DNA from: Planctomycetota bacterium | GTDB lineage: Bacteria > Planctomycetota > Phycisphaerae > Phycisphaerales > SM1A02 | NCBI GenBank assembly: GCA_003671025.1 | Contig: QWPW01000003.1 | Coordinates: 51,941 to 115,940 of the forward strand | Direction: 5' to 3' | DNA length: 64,000 nt | Shown here: positions 35,598 to 42,689 of the stretch, in pieces | Layout: each line of letters begins with the position of its first letter | Position numbering within the stretch: position 1 is the first letter of the stretch | Notes under the pieces: generated by a model | Told to the model about the DNA's origin: nothing | What the model saw: only the letters and a program-made list of their open reading frames with translations | The model's database searches: none | Made by a program: the position numbers and the translations under genes

Positions 35598-36500
35598 TTA
35601 CGACTTCGCGGCCTCAAGCAAGCGAATCAGATCAGTCGCGGTGGCGATTCCTATCGGCGTCTCGTCGGCGCGTCCGTGCTCGGTGATGATCACCGCTTCG
35701 AGTCGCGGATTCTTTGACCACAGCGTGAGCGCATCGTCGGCAGAAGCATCGCGGGCGAGCAGGGCGAACTCATCGCGACGATGGTCACGCGCGAGCACTT
35801 CACTCACAGCGACCGAGGCGATGGTGCAGATCACTCGTTCGCTGCTGCCATTGCTATTCGTGGCATCGAGCGCGCCAGCTTGTGGCGAGCGAGCGCTGTT
35901 GGATTTGTGCGTCGGTGTTGGCAATGCGCACGCATCCAAATCGTGCGAGGCGATCCATCGCAACACTCCGCTGGCAGTGAGCAACGCCGCGATGCGTCCG
36001 TCCACTCGCACCGGAAAGCGCACAAAGCCCTTGTTTTGCACCAACGTCAACACGGCACCGATGCGGTCGGTCGCGTTGATGGTCACGACATCTTTCGCCG
36101 CCAATGCGCGCAATGGGACGGGTTTGCGCAACTCTTCGTCAATCGATTCGAGGGTCTGCACCGTGGTCATGGTGGGAACCGCGATGTATTCGGTGGCGCC
36201 GAAACGATTGTGAATCAACGCGTTGCGCAGCTCGCCTACTTCAAGCAAGAAGTCGAGATGTCGGCCGAAGTGTCGGCGCTGCGCAGCGATCTGACGCACG
36301 CACGAGGAGTAGCCGCGTCGTCGACCGTCGCGCGGCTCATCGAGCACATGCTGCATTTCGCGATCGATGCGGTTGTACGCGCCCTCGAAGCGGTCGATGC
36401 AAGAGCGATCAGCGTTGGAGCGATCACTCGCACTCTGGTTGTCATTTGAGCGCACTGAGGATTCGGTCGAGAATGTTTCCCGTTCGCGTGGATCGTTCAT
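35598..36500 (-). CDS. CBS-pair protein with HEPN-like N-domain
   Basis: A 300-residue cytoplasmic protein. The ATG at 36500 overlaps the upstream stop as ATGA. Residues 1-35 are low complexity. About 37-140 is helical and contains LRNALIHN, an Rx4H motif as in HEPN domains (suggestive only). Two CBS motifs follow: AKDVVTINATDRIGAVLTLVQ...RFPVRVDGRIAALLTASGVLRWI and a second at about 225-298 ending GIATATDLIRLLEAA. The pair probably binds an adenosine nucleotide. It is the last gene of the vWA-ExbB-ExbD operon and faces dinB convergently. A role as a regulator of that operon's machine is inference. Confidence 0.8.
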   Translation of the reverse strand: MNDPRERETFSTESSVRSNDNQSASDRSNADRSCIDRFEGAYNRIDREMQHVLDEPRDGRRRGYSSCVRQIAAQRRHFGRHLDFLLEVGELRNALIHNRFGATEYIAVPTMTTVQTLESIDEELRKPVPLRALAAKDVVTINATDRIGAVLTLVQNKGFVRFPVRVDGRIAALLTASGVLRWIASHDLDACALPTPTHKSNSARSPQAGALDATNSNGSSERVICTIASVAVSEVLARDHRRDEFALLARDASADDALTLWSKNPRLEAVIITEHGRADETPIGIATATDLIRLLEAAKS

Positions 36501-38620
36501 CGTGCGTTCTCTCTTGCCGGAGTTTCTTGTCGATTGGTGGAGGGTGCGCGGAGTGCGCGCCAACGCGAAGCGAGTCGCCCTTGGTCAAGCGTCGGGTCGA
36601 GCGCTTCAAGTCGGTTGAGACGCGATGCGATGTCATTCGCGCGTGATGGCTGGTCGATCAACATTTCCAGTTGCATCAGTTGCGCGCGCCACCACCATGC
36701 ATCTCGCGTCGGCGCGGCGATGGGCGCGAGATCGCGTGCCAGCGAAAACGCTTCTGCGCGCGCTGAATCCGTGCGATTTTGCATGAGGCATTCGGCGAGC
36801 AGCCAACGCGCCGCACGATCGGTGTCATCGGAAGCGACCATCGCGCGCGCGCGAGCGGTGGCCCGATCGATTGCATCTGTTGCAAGACTCGCCCACACCG
36901 CGGCGAAATCGAGTGCGCGTGGAGCAACGCTTGGAGCAATCAGCGCGAGTGTGGTCATGGGCAGCAATTCTTCGCGCGCGAGTGTCGCTGCATTTGCTTT
37001 GTCTTCGCTCATCCACGCTTCATCGACTTGCGTCGTCACGCGCGCAATCGGAGCCATGAGCGCGTCGCGAACCGAGAGATCAGTTGCCGCCAGCGCAATG
37101 AGGTCGGGTGGCGCGTCAAATTCGAGCGAGCCTGATGTGGCTGCGCTGATCCACACCGAAGCCGCGCGTGCCGCAGCGCGTGAATCCACAATCGGTGGAG
37201 CGAACGCGCGTGCGGCGACGGTCATCGCTTCGCGCGGGTGAGAGAGCGCGAGTGCCAACGCAGCGCGCAACACCTCAGCGCGCGGCAGCACCGACGTGGC
37301 GCGCGTGGCAGCACCAACGGGGCGCACTTCGATTTCAAGCTTGGTCGCGACTAGGCCCACGCGGCGCGCGAGATCAGCAAGGTGCGACGCGTTTTCGATA
37401 CCGCGCGCGTGTTCGATTTCGAGTGAGCGCAACTCACGCACCGTGTTGAACTCGCGCGACGTTGGAACCGCGAGAAGTGTTTGCCCAGCGAGATCAAGTG
37501 TGGGCGCGGACCAGCGCGGAAACAGCGCGAGATCAACTCGTTCCAGAAGCCAATCAGCGTGTGCGTCATCGTTGGGAAGGCGCGCGCACGCGATGGCCAG
37601 CGCTGCATCGAGGTTCCGTTCACCCGCAGCGTCGCGCTGTGCCAATGCTCGCTCCATCGTGAGCGCAAGCGCCATCGCGGCGGCGGCGTTGGGATGTGTT
37701 GGCGCACGACTCACGAGATCAAGAATGTGTTCGCACGCGCGTGCGATTTCTCCTCGCGACGCGAGAAAACGCGCGTAACGCAGGGAAAACCAAGGCATCA
37801 CCAGCGGATCGTCTGCGCAACGCTCGGCCGCTGCGGGATGCGCCGTCAACAGCGCATCGCTCTCGTCGCTGAGCACGGCGAGCGCAAACAACACTGGCGG
37901 CGCATCGTCGGAATCCGCGAGTGCGCGTAGCGGCGCATTGATTCTCTGCGAGAGCGTTGAAGCCGCGTCGAGCAAGGCAAGGGTTGAAGCCGCCTGCGTG
38001 CTGCGCGTTTGCGATTGGAGAAAATTGCGCAGCGCCGCATCGACCGTGGTCGCGCCTTCGCTCACGCGCAGCGATGCTTGCGCTGTTGCCGCGAGTAACG
38101 CTAACGAGTCGCGCTCTGTCACGAGATAAGGGAAGGGCTGCGCGTTCGTGCGATCACGCCATGATTCGACTTGCGCGACATAGCGCGTGGTTTCGTCTCG
38201 ACTGCGCATCGCATCTTGCAACAGCCGCGCGCGCAACGCGGTGTCGTTGTTTGCACGCGAGCGCGCGAGCGCAAGAATCGCAGCAAGCTCGCTGTCGATG
38301 GGAAGTTCGGTAGAGGCAGCGCGCGTGAGCAACGCGTTCGCTCGCGTGCGCGTTGCGCTGTTGATCGCAGGATCGTCGACGCCGCGAGTCAAGTCAGCTT
38401 GCGCGAGTGTCGCGAGTCCGGCAAGCGCGTTTGCGCGGAAAACCGCAGGATTTGTGGCAATCGCGCTGTCTGCGGCGAACAACGACTGCAACGCTGGCTC
38501 CGCCAACCATCCTTGCACGCGCGCGAAGATCTCTGTTGCCCATGCGCGCTGCGCTGAGCTGGGGATGCCGATCGCGATCATGGCATCGCTGCCATCGGCG
38601 GGCAGTGCGCGCAGCAGCAC
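36497..38620 (-). CDS. Large helical-repeat protein, C-terminal part of a frameshifted gene
   Basis: Encodes about 707 residues, nearly all predicted alpha-helix and rich in Ala, Arg and Leu, in irregular 30-40-residue pairs that resemble TPR or HEAT repeats. No named family is recognised. The real N-terminus is the fragment at 38620-39044 in another frame. Removing one copy of a 31-bp tandem duplication at 38623-38684 joins the two into a single reading frame of about 837 codons. The stop overlaps the CBS gene ATG. The context (ExbB/ExbD/vWA operon) suggests an envelope-associated scaffold, if the gene is intact. Confidence 0.75.
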   Translation of the reverse strand: MLLRALPADGSDAMIAIGIPSSAQRAWATEIFARVQGWLAEPALQSLFAADSAIATNPAVFRANALAGLATLAQADLTRGVDDPAINSATRTRANALLTRAASTELPIDSELAAILALARSRANNDTALRARLLQDAMRSRDETTRYVAQVESWRDRTNAQPFPYLVTERDSLALLAATAQASLRVSEGATTVDAALRNFLQSQTRSTQAASTLALLDAASTLSQRINAPLRALADSDDAPPVLFALAVLSDESDALLTAHPAAAERCADDPLVMPWFSLRYARFLASRGEIARACEHILDLVSRAPTHPNAAAAMALALTMERALAQRDAAGERNLDAALAIACARLPNDDAHADWLLERVDLALFPRWSAPTLDLAGQTLLAVPTSREFNTVRELRSLEIEHARGIENASHLADLARRVGLVATKLEIEVRPVGAATRATSVLPRAEVLRAALALALSHPREAMTVAARAFAPPIVDSRAAARAASVWISAATSGSLEFDAPPDLIALAATDLSVRDALMAPIARVTTQVDEAWMSEDKANAATLAREELLPMTTLALIAPSVAPRALDFAAVWASLATDAIDRATARARAMVASDDTDRAARWLLAECLMQNRTDSARAEAFSLARDLAPIAAPTRDAWWWRAQLMQLEMLIDQPSRANDIASRLNRLEALDPTLDQGRLASRWRALRAPSTNRQETPARENAR

Positions 38621-39044
38621 GTCTTCTATGCATTCGAGTAACAGTTCGCGCGCCTTCTATGCATTCGAGCAACAGTTCGCGCGCCGCGAGAGTGTCCAGT
38701 CCTTGGGTGTGCGCGAGATCCGCACGGAGCCCAACAAGTCGCACTTCTACGCTGCGAAGCTCTTGCGCGGAGTGGGCCGCGGCGCGTAATGAAATCGCCT
38801 CGCGCGCCAGGGCCGCGCGGATCGCGACTTTGCTCGACGGTGCCTCGCGCGTGATGACATCAATCTGTGCGAGATCATCGGCCACTTCCGCAGCGCGCAG
38901 CTGCGCATACACACGCGCGAGCGAGTTCACAGTCTCCGCAGCCGTCTGCATGGATGCCCGTGAGTTTGCGCCTTCGTCTGTGTGTGGCGCAGCGCAGTGC
39001 AATCCAGTCGCAGTCATGAGCAGCGACGCGATTGGAGCGATCAT
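38621..39044 (-). pseudogene. N-terminal part of the helical-repeat protein, cut off by a 31-bp duplication frameshift
   Basis: The ATG at 39044 overlaps the exbD stop as ATGA. The first 20 residues look like a signal peptide (MIAPIASLLMTATGLHCAA). The next 120 residues are helical and continuous in style with the downstream 707-residue frame. After LLLECIE the frame enters the duplicated unit and becomes nonsense, stopping at 38394. The distance between the two starts is 424 nt; subtracting 31 gives 393, a multiple of three, so one deletion restores the frame exactly. This is either a true frameshift mutation or an assembly error. Confidence 0.75.
38623..38684. repeat. 31-bp tandem duplication causing a frameshift
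   Basis: Units 38623-38653 and 38654-38684 begin cttctatgcattcgag and end aacagttcgcgcgc. They differ at a single base (t versus c after gag). The length is not a multiple of three, so it breaks the minus-strand gene. Confidence 0.95.
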
Positions 39045-39523
39045 GGTTGCGTGTTCCCAAAGGCCACCGAGCGATAGCCCGCAGCAATGATCGCGTTGAA
39101 TGCTCCCACGACATCCTCCCAGGCCACATCGCTCGCGGCGGCAATGCGAATGGGATGATCGGCGGCGAAGAGTCCGCGTGGTGTGTCGCGCGTCAACAAC
39201 ACATCCGCGAGTCGGCGCTCGAGTTGCGCGGCGTTGTTCACGGGCGCGAGTCCCGCGCTGAGCGTGATGTACACCGCGCCATCACGGTCCGTGAGTTCGA
39301 TGATGAGCGGATCAGTTTCGAGCGCGAAGGGATCGGAGTTGCTGGAAACCCCTTTGGAATCAGGCATTTCCGCGCGCAGCACGCGCTCGTTGGCCGCCGC
39401 TCCCGAGGTAAGCAGAAAGTACACGAGCAACATGAACACCACATCCACCATGGCGGTGATCGAGAGCGAGAGGCGCATGCGGGTGTGCGGCTCGCGAAGA
39501 TTGGCGCGGTGCTTACGAGCCAT
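39041..39523 (-). CDS. exbD: ExbD/TolR family protein (second copy)
   Basis: A 160-residue inner-membrane proton-channel subunit. A short cytoplasmic basic tail (MARKHRANLREPHTRMRLSLS), one TM helix with the conserved membrane Asp (TAMVDVVFMLLVYFLLTSG), then a periplasmic ExbD domain. The ATG at 39523 gives an 11-nt overlap with the first exbD; an ATG at 39532 is an alternative. Its stop overlaps the next gene by 4 nt. Two different ExbDs with one ExbB is common in Planctomycetes and Bacteroidota. Confidence 0.92.
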   Translation of the reverse strand: MARKHRANLREPHTRMRLSLSITAMVDVVFMLLVYFLLTSGAAANERVLRAEMPDSKGVSSNSDPFALETDPLIIELTDRDGAVYITLSAGLAPVNNAAQLERRLADVLLTRDTPRGLFAADHPIRIAAASDVAWEDVVGAFNAIIAAGYRSVAFGNTQP

Positions 39524-40001
39524 GCGTGCCACTCCCGCTTGGGATCTCTACGACGAGATTCAGTCGTGGCAACGCGCCGCCACCAGCGATACGCGCTCCT
39601 GTTGTCGCGGCCCGCATCGCCGGTTCGACCCACATGTACTGGGTCGAGCGATCTGCGCGCAGATGCACCGCGAGCGTTGGGTTGAGTCGATATCCATCCG
39701 CGAGCGCGAGCGCGAGTTGTCCAACGCCTTCCGCAGACGCCGCGTAGGTCGTGCCGTTGAGCAGATATCCGAGCGCGCCGCCATTGTCGTCGGGCAAGAC
39801 ATTGATGATGTATCGCGTCTCCTCAACTGCTCGACTGGAGGCTCCGGCGGAAACGCGAGCGAGCGACATGTCGACATGTTCACTCTCACTCAGTCGTGAG
39901 GCCAGCGTGAAAAACACCAACAAGAAAAACATGACATCGATCATCGGGATGAGATTCATCTCGATCTGCGCATACGCGGGACGTGATTTGCGGCGGGCCA
40001 T
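39513..40001 (-). CDS. exbD: ExbD/TolR family protein (first copy)
   Basis: A 162-residue ExbD/TolR protein. The N-terminal AQIEMNLIPMIDVMFFLLVFFTLAS contains the conserved membrane Asp in NLIPMIDVMF, the standard ExbD signature. The periplasmic domain follows and ends PRLNLVVEIPSGSGTHGS. It is 18 bp after exbB and overlaps the second exbD. Confidence 0.94.
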   Translation of the reverse strand: MARRKSRPAYAQIEMNLIPMIDVMFFLLVFFTLASRLSESEHVDMSLARVSAGASSRAVEETRYIINVLPDDNGGALGYLLNGTTYAASAEGVGQLALALADGYRLNPTLAVHLRADRSTQYMWVEPAMRAATTGARIAGGGALPRLNLVVEIPSGSGTHGS

Positions 40002-40019
40002 GAACGGTGGTTGAGTGGG

Positions 40020-40682
40020 TTACTTGTTGGCGGCGGCGTCGTGCGCAGGACGAAAGAGCGCGATGAGTTCTTCGGTCGCGGCGAGCGCTTCGTCGGAGTG
40101 GGCGATGGCGTTGTTGCGCATCGCGGCGTAGGCGCCTGTGGCTGGAATCGCTATGAAAAGGCCCCAAAACGTCGACACCAGCGCGGCACCGATACCGCCG
40201 GCAAGCATCACCGGATTCGCGGCGCCTCCAGTGCTGGCGATGGTTTGAAACGCGGCGATCATTCCGTAGACCGTTCCAAACAAGCCGAGCATCGGCGCAA
40301 CTTGCCCGAGGATGTTGAGTCGCTCCAATGCGCGTAAGCGAACGGCCAGCAGTTCATCCGCGCGTTCTTCCGCGGCGTGCGACATCGCCTCGACTCCTTG
40401 TGGTGATCGATCGAGCGCGCGCGCCACCATGAGCTCGAGGTCGCTTGTTCCTCGCGTGGCGCGTTGGATCGCGTCGTTGTAGCGGCCACTCGCGAGCAGT
40501 TCGCGCAATGCATCGCAGGCACTCGCAGAAAAAACCGTGCGCCGTTGGTTGCCCATCATCGATTGAACGATGAGTGAAATGTTGACCACGGAGAGAAGCA
40601 GCAGCACCCAAATCATGGTGCTGCCAACCCAATCGAGCGCGCCTTCGCCGTTGAGCGCGTAGAAGAAAATGCTGCCGTTCAT
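40020..40682 (-). CDS. exbB: ExbB/TolQ/MotA family proton channel protein
   Basis: A 220-residue protein from the ATG at 40682, which overlaps the vWA gene stop as ATGA. Three TM helices: about 12-35 (STMIWVLLLLSVVNISLIVQS), and two in the conserved C-terminal core LNILGQVAPMLGLFGTVYGMI and GGIGAALVSTFWGLFIAIPA. These are the MotA/TolQ/ExbB channel-domain signatures. It forms the pentameric stator with ExbD subunits and uses proton-motive force. The acting effector here is probably the vWA protein rather than TonB (inference). Confidence 0.93.
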   Translation of the reverse strand: MNGSIFFYALNGEGALDWVGSTMIWVLLLLSVVNISLIVQSMMGNQRRTVFSASACDALRELLASGRYNDAIQRATRGTSDLELMVARALDRSPQGVEAMSHAAEERADELLAVRLRALERLNILGQVAPMLGLFGTVYGMIAAFQTIASTGGAANPVMLAGGIGAALVSTFWGLFIAIPATGAYAAMRNNAIAHSDEALAATEELIALFRPAHDAAANK

Positions 40683-41734
40683 AAATTTGGCTCCGTCGGA
40701 TGTGTTTCCGTCGCCGATGGTGTCGATGGCGCATCGAGTCCCGATGCGCTGCGTGAGATGAAGCGGTATCCGCCTTCGCCGTAGTGTGCAGCGGCGACGG
40801 CTTCGAGTGTTCGTCCTGGGTCTTCTTCGAGAAACTGAATGCACTGAATGGTCGCGAGCCGTCGCCCACTCGATGCGTCGCGCGGATTGAGTCGCTCTAA
40901 AAGTTGCAGCAACGAGACGCGGTCAAGTTCGTGTCGCCCTGGACCAGTGATGGTGGTCGAGAGCAAAAACACGCAATCTGCGCCGGAATCAAGTGCTTTC
41001 GTCAACGCTTGAATCGGGCTCGATCGTCCCGCAGGCACGATGCTCTGGCGCAACCACTGAAGACTTTCCGCGCGATGGGCACGGCTGGCGCTGCGCAAGC
41101 CAAGTTCGTCGCGCAACGTTTCTGCGCCGTCGCGACGAAACACGATGATGGTGAATTCTTGCGTGGGTTCGAGTTGCGCCAACGAGCGCTCGACTTCATC
41201 GACGATGGCGGAAAAACTTCCGATCATCGAGCCCGAGGCATCGACCACATACGCAACTTTGGTGGCGTTCCCTGCGACGAGTCCTGCGAAGGTCGCGCCC
41301 GCTCGCATCGGTGCACGCGAGTCATCACGCGCGCGTTGGTCATCGTCGCGCGATCCGCTGCCTGTCGAAATCGCACCGAAGCGTCGTGCCAGCGCGTCGA
41401 GCTCGCTGTTGTCGGCACTGCTCGCCTCAAGCGCACGCAACTGCTGTGCGAGATCGGCGGCGTTCGCGTCTTCATTGCGCGCAGGTTGCTGACGAGCCGC
41501 GGGGGTCGCATCAACGCGAGCACCGTCGGTCGCGCGAGGCGCGGGAGAAAAGAAATCTGCAACAAGCACAACCGGAGGCAACTCGTTGGTCGCAATGCGC
41601 GTCACGCCCCATGCTGTGCCCAAGATTCCAAAGCCGATCAGCCCGTGGATGCACAGCGAAACTGCGAGACTCGTTCTCGCGCGTCGCTTCGTCGCAGCGT
41701 GCGCGTGCGCGGTTGCTCCCGTCACTCTTGCCAT
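40679..41734 (-). CDS. TonB-position membrane protein with von Willebrand A domain
   Basis: A 351-residue protein, first gene of the ExbBD operon. A short basic cytoplasmic tail, then one TM helix (SLAVSLCIHGLIGFGILGTAWG, with the SxxxH arrangement seen in TonB anchors), a Pro/Ala/Asp linker (about 50-155), and a vWA domain (about 158-345) starting VAYVVDASGSMIGSF. The DxSGS MIDAS core is intact, so it could bind metal and a protein ligand. No TonB C-terminal domain is present. A TAGGAT hexamer 6 nt before the ATG suggests a leaderless mRNA. Confidence 0.88.
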   Translation of the reverse strand: MARVTGATAHAHAATKRRARTSLAVSLCIHGLIGFGILGTAWGVTRIATNELPPVVLVADFFSPAPRATDGARVDATPAARQQPARNEDANAADLAQQLRALEASSADNSELDALARRFGAISTGSGSRDDDQRARDDSRAPMRAGATFAGLVAGNATKVAYVVDASGSMIGSFSAIVDEVERSLAQLEPTQEFTIIVFRRDGAETLRDELGLRSASRAHRAESLQWLRQSIVPAGRSSPIQALTKALDSGADCVFLLSTTITGPGRHELDRVSLLQLLERLNPRDASSGRRLATIQCIQFLEEDPGRTLEAVAAAHYGEGGYRFISRSASGLDAPSTPSATETHPTEPNL

Positions 41735-41905: not shown

Positions 41906-42535
41906 TCACCCATCATCATGGTCATTGCCCGCGTCACGACGGAAGATGAGTCCATCGAGGCTGAACTTTCCTGGACCCATGAGCATCAGACCAAGTGCGA
42001 CGACCAAGATTGCCAACAGGCTCAACGCGAGCGCTCGAGGAAGGAGCGCATTAGGGTCGGTCGGCGTCCACAGCGCGAAGAACGTGTCGGAAACGGAAGA
42101 TGTGCTGAGGTAGAGCAATGCCAGCGACCACAGCGAGAGCCCTGCGGCCCACACGCGAGTGAACAGTCCCACCAACAACAGTGATCCGCCCACCAGTTCG
42201 AACACAGTCACGGTCCACGCCCAAACTTCGGGACGGGGTAAGCGCAAACCGTCGAACACCAACGTGAGTTCGTGCAATGAGCGCGTCTGCACACCAAGCG
42301 CTTCGAGCGCCTCGGGCGAAAGTGGTGGCGCGTCCTGCTGCCACGCGACATGCGTGATGTCAGAGGGTGCCGCGGCCGAAACGATTCCGAGGTCGCGCAA
42401 TCGTCCCGCGTGCGTGCCGCTGAAGTCAGTGAATTGCATCGCGTGATGCCAACCCGCAGGAACAAACGCAAGAAACAGCAGCACTCGCGCGAGAAACGGA
42501 ACGACGTTGGCGGCTGCTTGCTGGCTGAATTTCAT
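41906..42535 (-). CDS. DoxX family membrane protein
   Basis: A 209-residue protein with about four hydrophobic helices: VVPFLARVLLFLAFVPAGWHHAM, VWAWTVTVFELVGGSLLLVGLFTRVWA, and ALALSLLAILVVALGLMLMGPGKFSLD. The ELxGG...LGL.TR layout and the GPGKFSLD end are typical of DoxX. An extra soluble stretch of about 60 residues lies after helix 1. The start at 42535 is preferred over 42568 because it gives the standard short N-terminus. It stands alone between the vWA operon and a tRNA. Confidence 0.85.
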   Translation of the reverse strand: MKFSQQAAANVVPFLARVLLFLAFVPAGWHHAMQFTDFSGTHAGRLRDLGIVSAAAPSDITHVAWQQDAPPLSPEALEALGVQTRSLHELTLVFDGLRLPRPEVWAWTVTVFELVGGSLLLVGLFTRVWAAGLSLWSLALLYLSTSSVSDTFFALWTPTDPNALLPRALALSLLAILVVALGLMLMGPGKFSLDGLIFRRDAGNDHDDG

Positions 42536-42689
42536 ATTGGTTGGTCCGCGCCTGATCCGTGTGTGCACCCGTTGGCAAATGCGGGGTCATGAGCAGAGTC
42601 ATGATCAAACTCTCTCGCTGCCCACCGCGACACCGATGAGTCGGCGATTGTCGCAACCTTGATGAATCGGCTCGACGCGGCAAAACCGT

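Follow-up and report, generated by a model that had tools for sequence, protein, structure and literature searches.

A six-gene operon encoding a protein with a von Willebrand factor type A (vWA) domain, an ExbB/ExbD-type stator and a large helical protein was analysed in a stretch of 64,000 nucleotides (nt) from a Planctomycetota bacterium of the order Phycisphaerales (assembly GCA_003671025.1, contig QWPW01000003.1, positions 51,941 to 115,940), which is referred to below as the window. The operon is a real and widely conserved member of the 'vWA force transducers', a class proposed in print in 2025 (section 8 of Williams-Jones et al., 2025; PMC12204202), and likely serves proton-powered work in the envelope. 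The initial annotation, made from the sequence alone, knew of no described machine with this set of genes, a statement overtaken by the 2025 proposal; its interpretation is partly supported, and its core idea was right in kind. In that section, the class is described by a transmembrane anchor with an SHLS motif and a conserved His, a disordered or proline-rich linker (domain II) of about 100 residues and a vWA C-terminal domain, together with a tolQ-like gene, a tolR-like pair and a TPR gene, and it is reported from Planctomycetes among other phyla (PMC12204202). The window operon has an SHLS-type anchor with the His, a linker of about 100 residues, a vWA domain at the C-terminal end and the same gene set, in which the TPR-type gene is split. 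According to the same text, TonB and TolA bind their motors through the SHLS residues, and the anchor of the vWA force transducers docks on the motor edge through its His (PMC12204202). The TPH-vWA family described there also pairs a vWA protein with a tolQ-like gene, but without tolR/exbD and without SHLS, whereas the window operon has both ExbDs and the motif. The upstream DoxX gene, the loss of an Asp from the metal ion-dependent adhesion site (MIDAS), the stator-less loci that keep the anchor motif, and CBS as a local add-on are added here to the published class; the terms DoxX, MIDAS, CBS, DnaJ and Phycisphaer- do not occur in the main text of PMC12204202, its figures and supplement lying outside this comparison.

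The operon occupies positions 35598 to 41734 of the window on the minus strand, in the order vWA, ExbB, ExbD, ExbD, helical protein, CBS. The vWA protein (40679..41734, 351 amino acids, aa) consists of a membrane anchor with S26-x-x-x-H30, a low-confidence linker of about 90-100 residues and the vWA domain at about 144-333. Its gene shares 4 nt, as read from the start-codon list and the sequence, with that of the ExbB/TolQ-type stator subunit (40020..40682, 220 aa from ATG 40682; PF01618 2.1e-23, PDB TolQ 5.3e-11). A gap of 18 nt, the sole non-overlapping junction of the set, precedes the first ExbD/TolR-type subunit (39513..40001, 162 aa; PF02472 9.4e-16), which overlaps the second (39041..39523; PF02472 1.9e-13) by 11 nt when counted from ATG 39523. 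The second subunit has 160 aa from this ATG or 163 aa from GTG 39532. Overlaps of 4 nt then join it to the gene for the TPR-type alpha-solenoid protein (36497..39044), and the latter to the gene for a CBS-domain protein of 300 aa (35598..36500; PF00571 1.2e-09, two stretches), which is the last gene and lineage-specific. The six genes with their 4- to 11-nt overlaps and the 18-nt gap were thus confirmed from start codons and sequence, and this part of the first description of the operon holds. Two points are corrected: a 31-nt duplication interrupts the helical gene, and the MIDAS, reported as intact, is not. Across loci, 1- or 4-nt overlaps were found in 43 of 58 rows for the junctions after an ExbD stop, a count biased towards such overlaps because the start codons nearest that stop were chosen. 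In a promoter and terminator scan, 0 promoter-like sites were counted against an expectation of 1.4, and 11 terminator-like sites against 7.8.

Anchor, vWA head and stator subunits

In an alignment of 104 vWA proteins, the Ser26 column is Ser in 102 and the His30 column is His in 102, which bears out that a TonB-style anchor carries the vWA domain in the position of TonB; a plain string search found S-x-x-x-H within the most hydrophobic segment of 100 of the 104. All stator-less loci that offer 6 kb or more downstream (L100, L101, L104, L106, L109) keep the motif as well. In the AlphaFold2 model, the linker (residues ~49-142) has mostly low predicted local distance difference test scores (pLDDT) with two short helices (92-105 and 110-118), the C-terminal part is predicted to adopt the vWA fold, and no TolA/TonB C-terminal domain is present. 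The window vWA lies below the Pfam cut-off, unlike its relatives in L140, L144 and L148, which are above it; ExbB, both ExbDs and CBS of the window are also above their cut-offs.

The MIDAS had been taken as intact from its DASGS motif. The motif is present, and sequence alignment places Ser238 at the Thr position and Thr260 at the position of the third-ligand Asp, so that by this alignment the window protein departs from the canonical site (DxSxS with Thr and Asp ligands). Among the 104 aligned proteins, the third position is T in 30, D in 28, E in 19, S in 12, R in 7 and N in 4, with others in the remainder. The Asp is retained in the more distant relatives L140, L144, L145 and L148, and therefore the metal site has probably been altered in the window's clade. 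The pattern of the locus scan described below contains DASG, so the conservation of DASG among its 80 loci is circular; the Ser/His residues, the neighbours and the third MIDAS position lie outside the pattern, and the counts on them are free of this circularity.

On the stator side, the membrane Asp (in MIDVMF and MVDVVF in the window) was found in 63 of 63 first and 63 of 63 second ExbDs with a broadened pattern. A first, narrow pattern had given 48/63 and 62/63, and it was broadened after the printed misses proved to carry MIDM. Among PDB sequences, TolQ is the closest to the ExbB, which also has an NCBIfam tolQ match (7.8e-17) below the cut-off; five ExbB-type matches occur in the window's own genome (G000).

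Conservation of the gene set and the solenoid gene

Named genomes were scanned with the pattern V[VI]DASG[SA]M[IVL], which gave 94 confirmed matches, of which 80 loci were kept, mostly labelled Planctomycetota, Phycisphaerae or similar. Downstream genes were counted as present on the same strand within 8 kb, and their order was taken from the listing of each locus. ExbB and two ExbDs follow the vWA gene in 51 of the 57 loci with at least 6 kb after it, and a helical-profile match is found as well in 47 of the 57; the initial annotation had proposed such a check of gene order. The six exceptions are L092, where ExbB and one ExbD were found, and the five stator-less loci named above. A stator with the helical profile unmatched occurs at L077, L080 and L085, with nothing large after it, and at L110, where an 823-aa protein follows. 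Two of these stator-less loci, L104 and L109, have a vWA gene followed by a large helical-profile protein with no ExbB match nearby, and in L106 the vWA lies in a single 851-aa frame, also with no ExbB nearby. Some labels look doubtful (L040 and L100, also L034 and L039): the planctomycete-type operon occurs on contigs labelled Limnohabitans or Vicinamibacteraceae, and two contigs are labelled Kuenenia though they are close matches to the window's genus.

The vWA protein was matched at E <= 0.001 in 57 of 61 genomes (the own genome and 60 relatives), although the sole match of G013 and that of G015 are weak, and at E <= 1e-10 in 132 of the 392 genomes of a phylum sample; among the matches listed, all above 115 bits belong to the window's own order. 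A distant set of 49 loci was taken from the strongest hits listed, one per genome, with the second hits L143, L146 and L149 excluded and with G428, G424, G106, G127, G345, G278, G285, G224, G110 and weaker or unlisted genomes left out. Outside the order, 21 of the 49 best vWA hits precede ExbB and at least one ExbD, and 15 precede ExbB and two. The expected linkage of vWA and stator therefore stands within the order, and outside it is found in a minority of loci. The vWA-ExbB-ExbD grouping recurs in other families or classes (L144, L148, L150, L158, L172, L177). In two loci of other families within the class, L148 and L158, vWA-ExbB-ExbD-ExbD is followed by a 787-aa and a 797-aa protein, respectively, and then by a further large protein. 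Matches below the curated cut-offs link the 787-aa protein of L148 to TPR and the next protein to DnaJ. Moreover, the own genome carries a second, paralogous module (L140, G000:C5:14500-31500) of vWA, a 462-aa protein, ExbB, ExbD, ExbD, a 959-aa protein and one more protein, truncated where the examined stretch ends; the vWA of this module contains FLTDGE. Conservation of the gene set covers the order and extends, in modified form, to other families and classes. Two tandem vWA genes stand ahead of the stator genes in L152, L153 and L156 (other families of the order), vWA-ExbB is followed by one detected ExbD in L164, L166, L167, L168, L170 and L171 (same class), and in L157 the vWA is followed by a 711-aa protein with no ExbB nearby.

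In this assembly, the 31-nt tandem duplication (38617..38678) shifts the frame of the helical gene and leaves two open reading frames (38394-39044 and 36497-38620); it may be an assembly artefact or a strain variant. An intact protein of 838 aa without the duplication (P0121, 46 member sequences) spans the whole 707-aa window piece at 100% rounded identity, with at least 2 residues differing by eye, and this identity suggests that it comes from the same species; a second intact relative (P0122) is 76% identical. The AlphaFold2 model of P0121 is all helical (mean pLDDT 89.3), and its best PDB neighbours are TPR superhelices, so the gene product is predicted to be a TPR-type alpha-solenoid; folds missing from the structure-neighbour lists were not counted as evidence. 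Judging by eye from its N-terminus, the protein is probably exported.

Neighbouring genes

A gene for a DoxX-family membrane protein of 220 aa (41906..42568, minus strand; Pfam DoxX 9.1e-09) lies 171 nt upstream of the vWA gene. A DoxX-family gene stands directly upstream of vWA in all 61 loci for which 3 kb or more of upstream sequence is available and in 76 of the 80 overall, including the five stator-less loci L100, L101, L104, L106 and L109. The homologues were detected with a profile built up from the window's DoxX protein, and those of L053 and L109 were confirmed by Pfam. The median DoxX-vWA distance of about 51 nt is approximate, as the first ATG or GTG was used. The four misses are L040, L056 and L071, at a contig edge, and L094, with 2.1 kb available upstream. 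Among 36 further loci from the order or its paralogous modules, 12 have DoxX beside vWA; this set includes some loci with less than 300 nt of upstream sequence and several places entered twice. No DoxX gene was detected next to the second module L140, the tandem-vWA loci L152, L153 and L156, or the stator-less L157. The gene was found upstream of vWA in 0 of 47 more distant loci, and DoxX as a universal neighbour was dropped on these counts. In the mechanism proposed below, the upstream DoxX product would act as a membrane partner. Of 61 loci, 47 also have a DAHP synthase gene on the upstream side; neither neighbour was found in the 47 distant loci.

The CBS gene, whose product had been proposed as a partner, follows the helical gene in 10 of the 51 loci that have a helical gene and more than 1 kb beyond it. 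CBS was rejected as a core part on this count, and its product is probably a local regulator outside the core; the HEPN-like domain assigned to it found no Pfam or PDB support. vWA and ExbB are separated by an extra gene in 7 of the 80 near loci and 11 of the 49 distant loci; its product has about 315-430 aa (462 aa at L140). Examples are found in L053 (5288-6454), L055, L067, L144, L150, L153 and L177; that of L153 has TPR matches above the cut-off. In L153 (1804-6922) and L155 (9204-14765), which belong to one family, an ABC transporter and a large unassigned protein are encoded directly upstream of vWA; the ABC ATPase is GldA-like, below the GldA cut-off, and an ABC-2-type permease match is also below its cut-off.

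Proposed mechanism and its alternatives

We hypothesize, with moderate confidence, that the operon encodes a proton-powered force transducer whose vWA domain, replacing the TonB C-terminal domain, pulls on or releases the solenoid protein. An ExbB pentamer would surround one ExbD of each kind, His30 would dock the anchor on the stator by analogy with TonB and TolA, and proton flow would move the anchor. The vWA head would then grip the solenoid or its cargo, and force would pass towards the peptidoglycan or the outer membrane. Because Thr occupies the third MIDAS position, this grip would depend on metal weakly or not at all. Although well motivated, the pulling mechanism is inferred. TonB-ExbB-ExbD has the same stator type and the Ser-x-x-x-His anchor, whereas here vWA replaces the TonB C-terminal domain, two ExbDs and a solenoid are present, and no receptor match lies on the contig. 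The ExbB is closest to TolQ of TolA-TolQ-TolR (Tol-Pal), but the operon proteins have no Pfam or NCBIfam match to TolA, TolB or Pal, and there are two ExbDs. The Myxococcus gliding motor AglRQS has one TolQ-type and two TolR-type subunits, as here; its operon is not known to encode a TonB-anchored vWA protein. Anti-phage defence by a Zorya-like MotAB system was rejected with 0 PADLOC matches at E <= 0.01 among 7 proteins. In Rhodopirellula, exbB/exbD were reported to be induced by high salt, in a passage that makes no tie to vWA (PMC2754498).

Several observations weigh against this mechanism. The window's own solenoid gene is broken, and a narrower second ExbB threonine pattern fits just 36 of 70. 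No ExbB match was found downstream in 10 of the 80 loci; L052, L090, L094, L097 and L099 sit on short contigs, and the other five, L100, L101, L104, L106 and L109, are still ExbB-less despite at least 6 kb, so the stator linkage is not constant. Nor is the solenoid, since L077, L080 and L085 have vWA, ExbB, two ExbDs and more than 7 kb of room, yet no large protein. Outside the order, vWA adjoins ExbB and ExbD in just 21 of 49 loci, a count from profiles trained on the near set, which may miss distant homologues.

The same set of genes could be read differently. The vWA protein might be a gate and not an effector, sensing the envelope through the solenoid and opening or closing the ExbB-ExbD proton channel as a regulated leak or sensor. 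vWA domains are ligand-binding modules, and in some lineages the last gene of the operon encodes a CBS protein; however, the Ser and His of the TonB/TolA type, at 102/104 each, mark driven transducers, and CBS occurs in just 10 of 51 loci. Neither point is decisive, and we consider a gate unlikely. It is rather improbable that the neighbourhood is an old frozen stretch of chromosome in which vWA is no working partner of the stator. The DAHP synthase gene upstream in 47 of 61 loci and the five evaluable loci with vWA and no ExbB would fit such a stretch, but vWA-ExbB-ExbD recurs in L140 and in L144, L148, L150, L158, L172 and L177, and DoxX or DAHP synthase neighbours occur in 0 of the 47 distant loci tested.

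Import, with vWA replacing TonB at TonB-dependent receptors, would use the same anchor and stator type, and we regard it as very improbable. TonB_C had no match among the operon proteins, and TonB-dependent receptors had none on the window's contig. Genome G000 has one TonB_C match and one receptor match, both on contig C32 about 3.3 kb apart; TonB is thus encoded separately, and the sole detected receptor shares its contig with the TonB_C match. TonB as an obligatory partner elsewhere, which the initial annotation had named as a refuting case, was rejected for the same reason. Furthermore, G037, G041 and G042 carry the vWA protein with no PF00593 and no TonB_C match, and two relatives without detected TonB keep vWA near ExbB. 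A more speculative proposal, to which we give little weight, is that in the Phycisphaerales the TonB-type transducer became a metal-independent vWA gripper with a DoxX redox partner, its pulling tied to the redox state of the membrane. The DoxX-vWA pair would then be the core, and not the stator, because the pair persists where the stator genes have left; against this, L157, outside the 80 loci, has neither ExbB nor DoxX beside vWA.

To our knowledge, ExbB/ExbD-type motors drive only a few effectors. If the force-transducer mechanism is true, a vWA head in the TonB position, found across a phylum with unusual envelopes, would add a further kind of proton-driven work in the envelope. For testing what task the published gene set performs, concrete handles are provided by the DoxX neighbour and the lost metal ligand.

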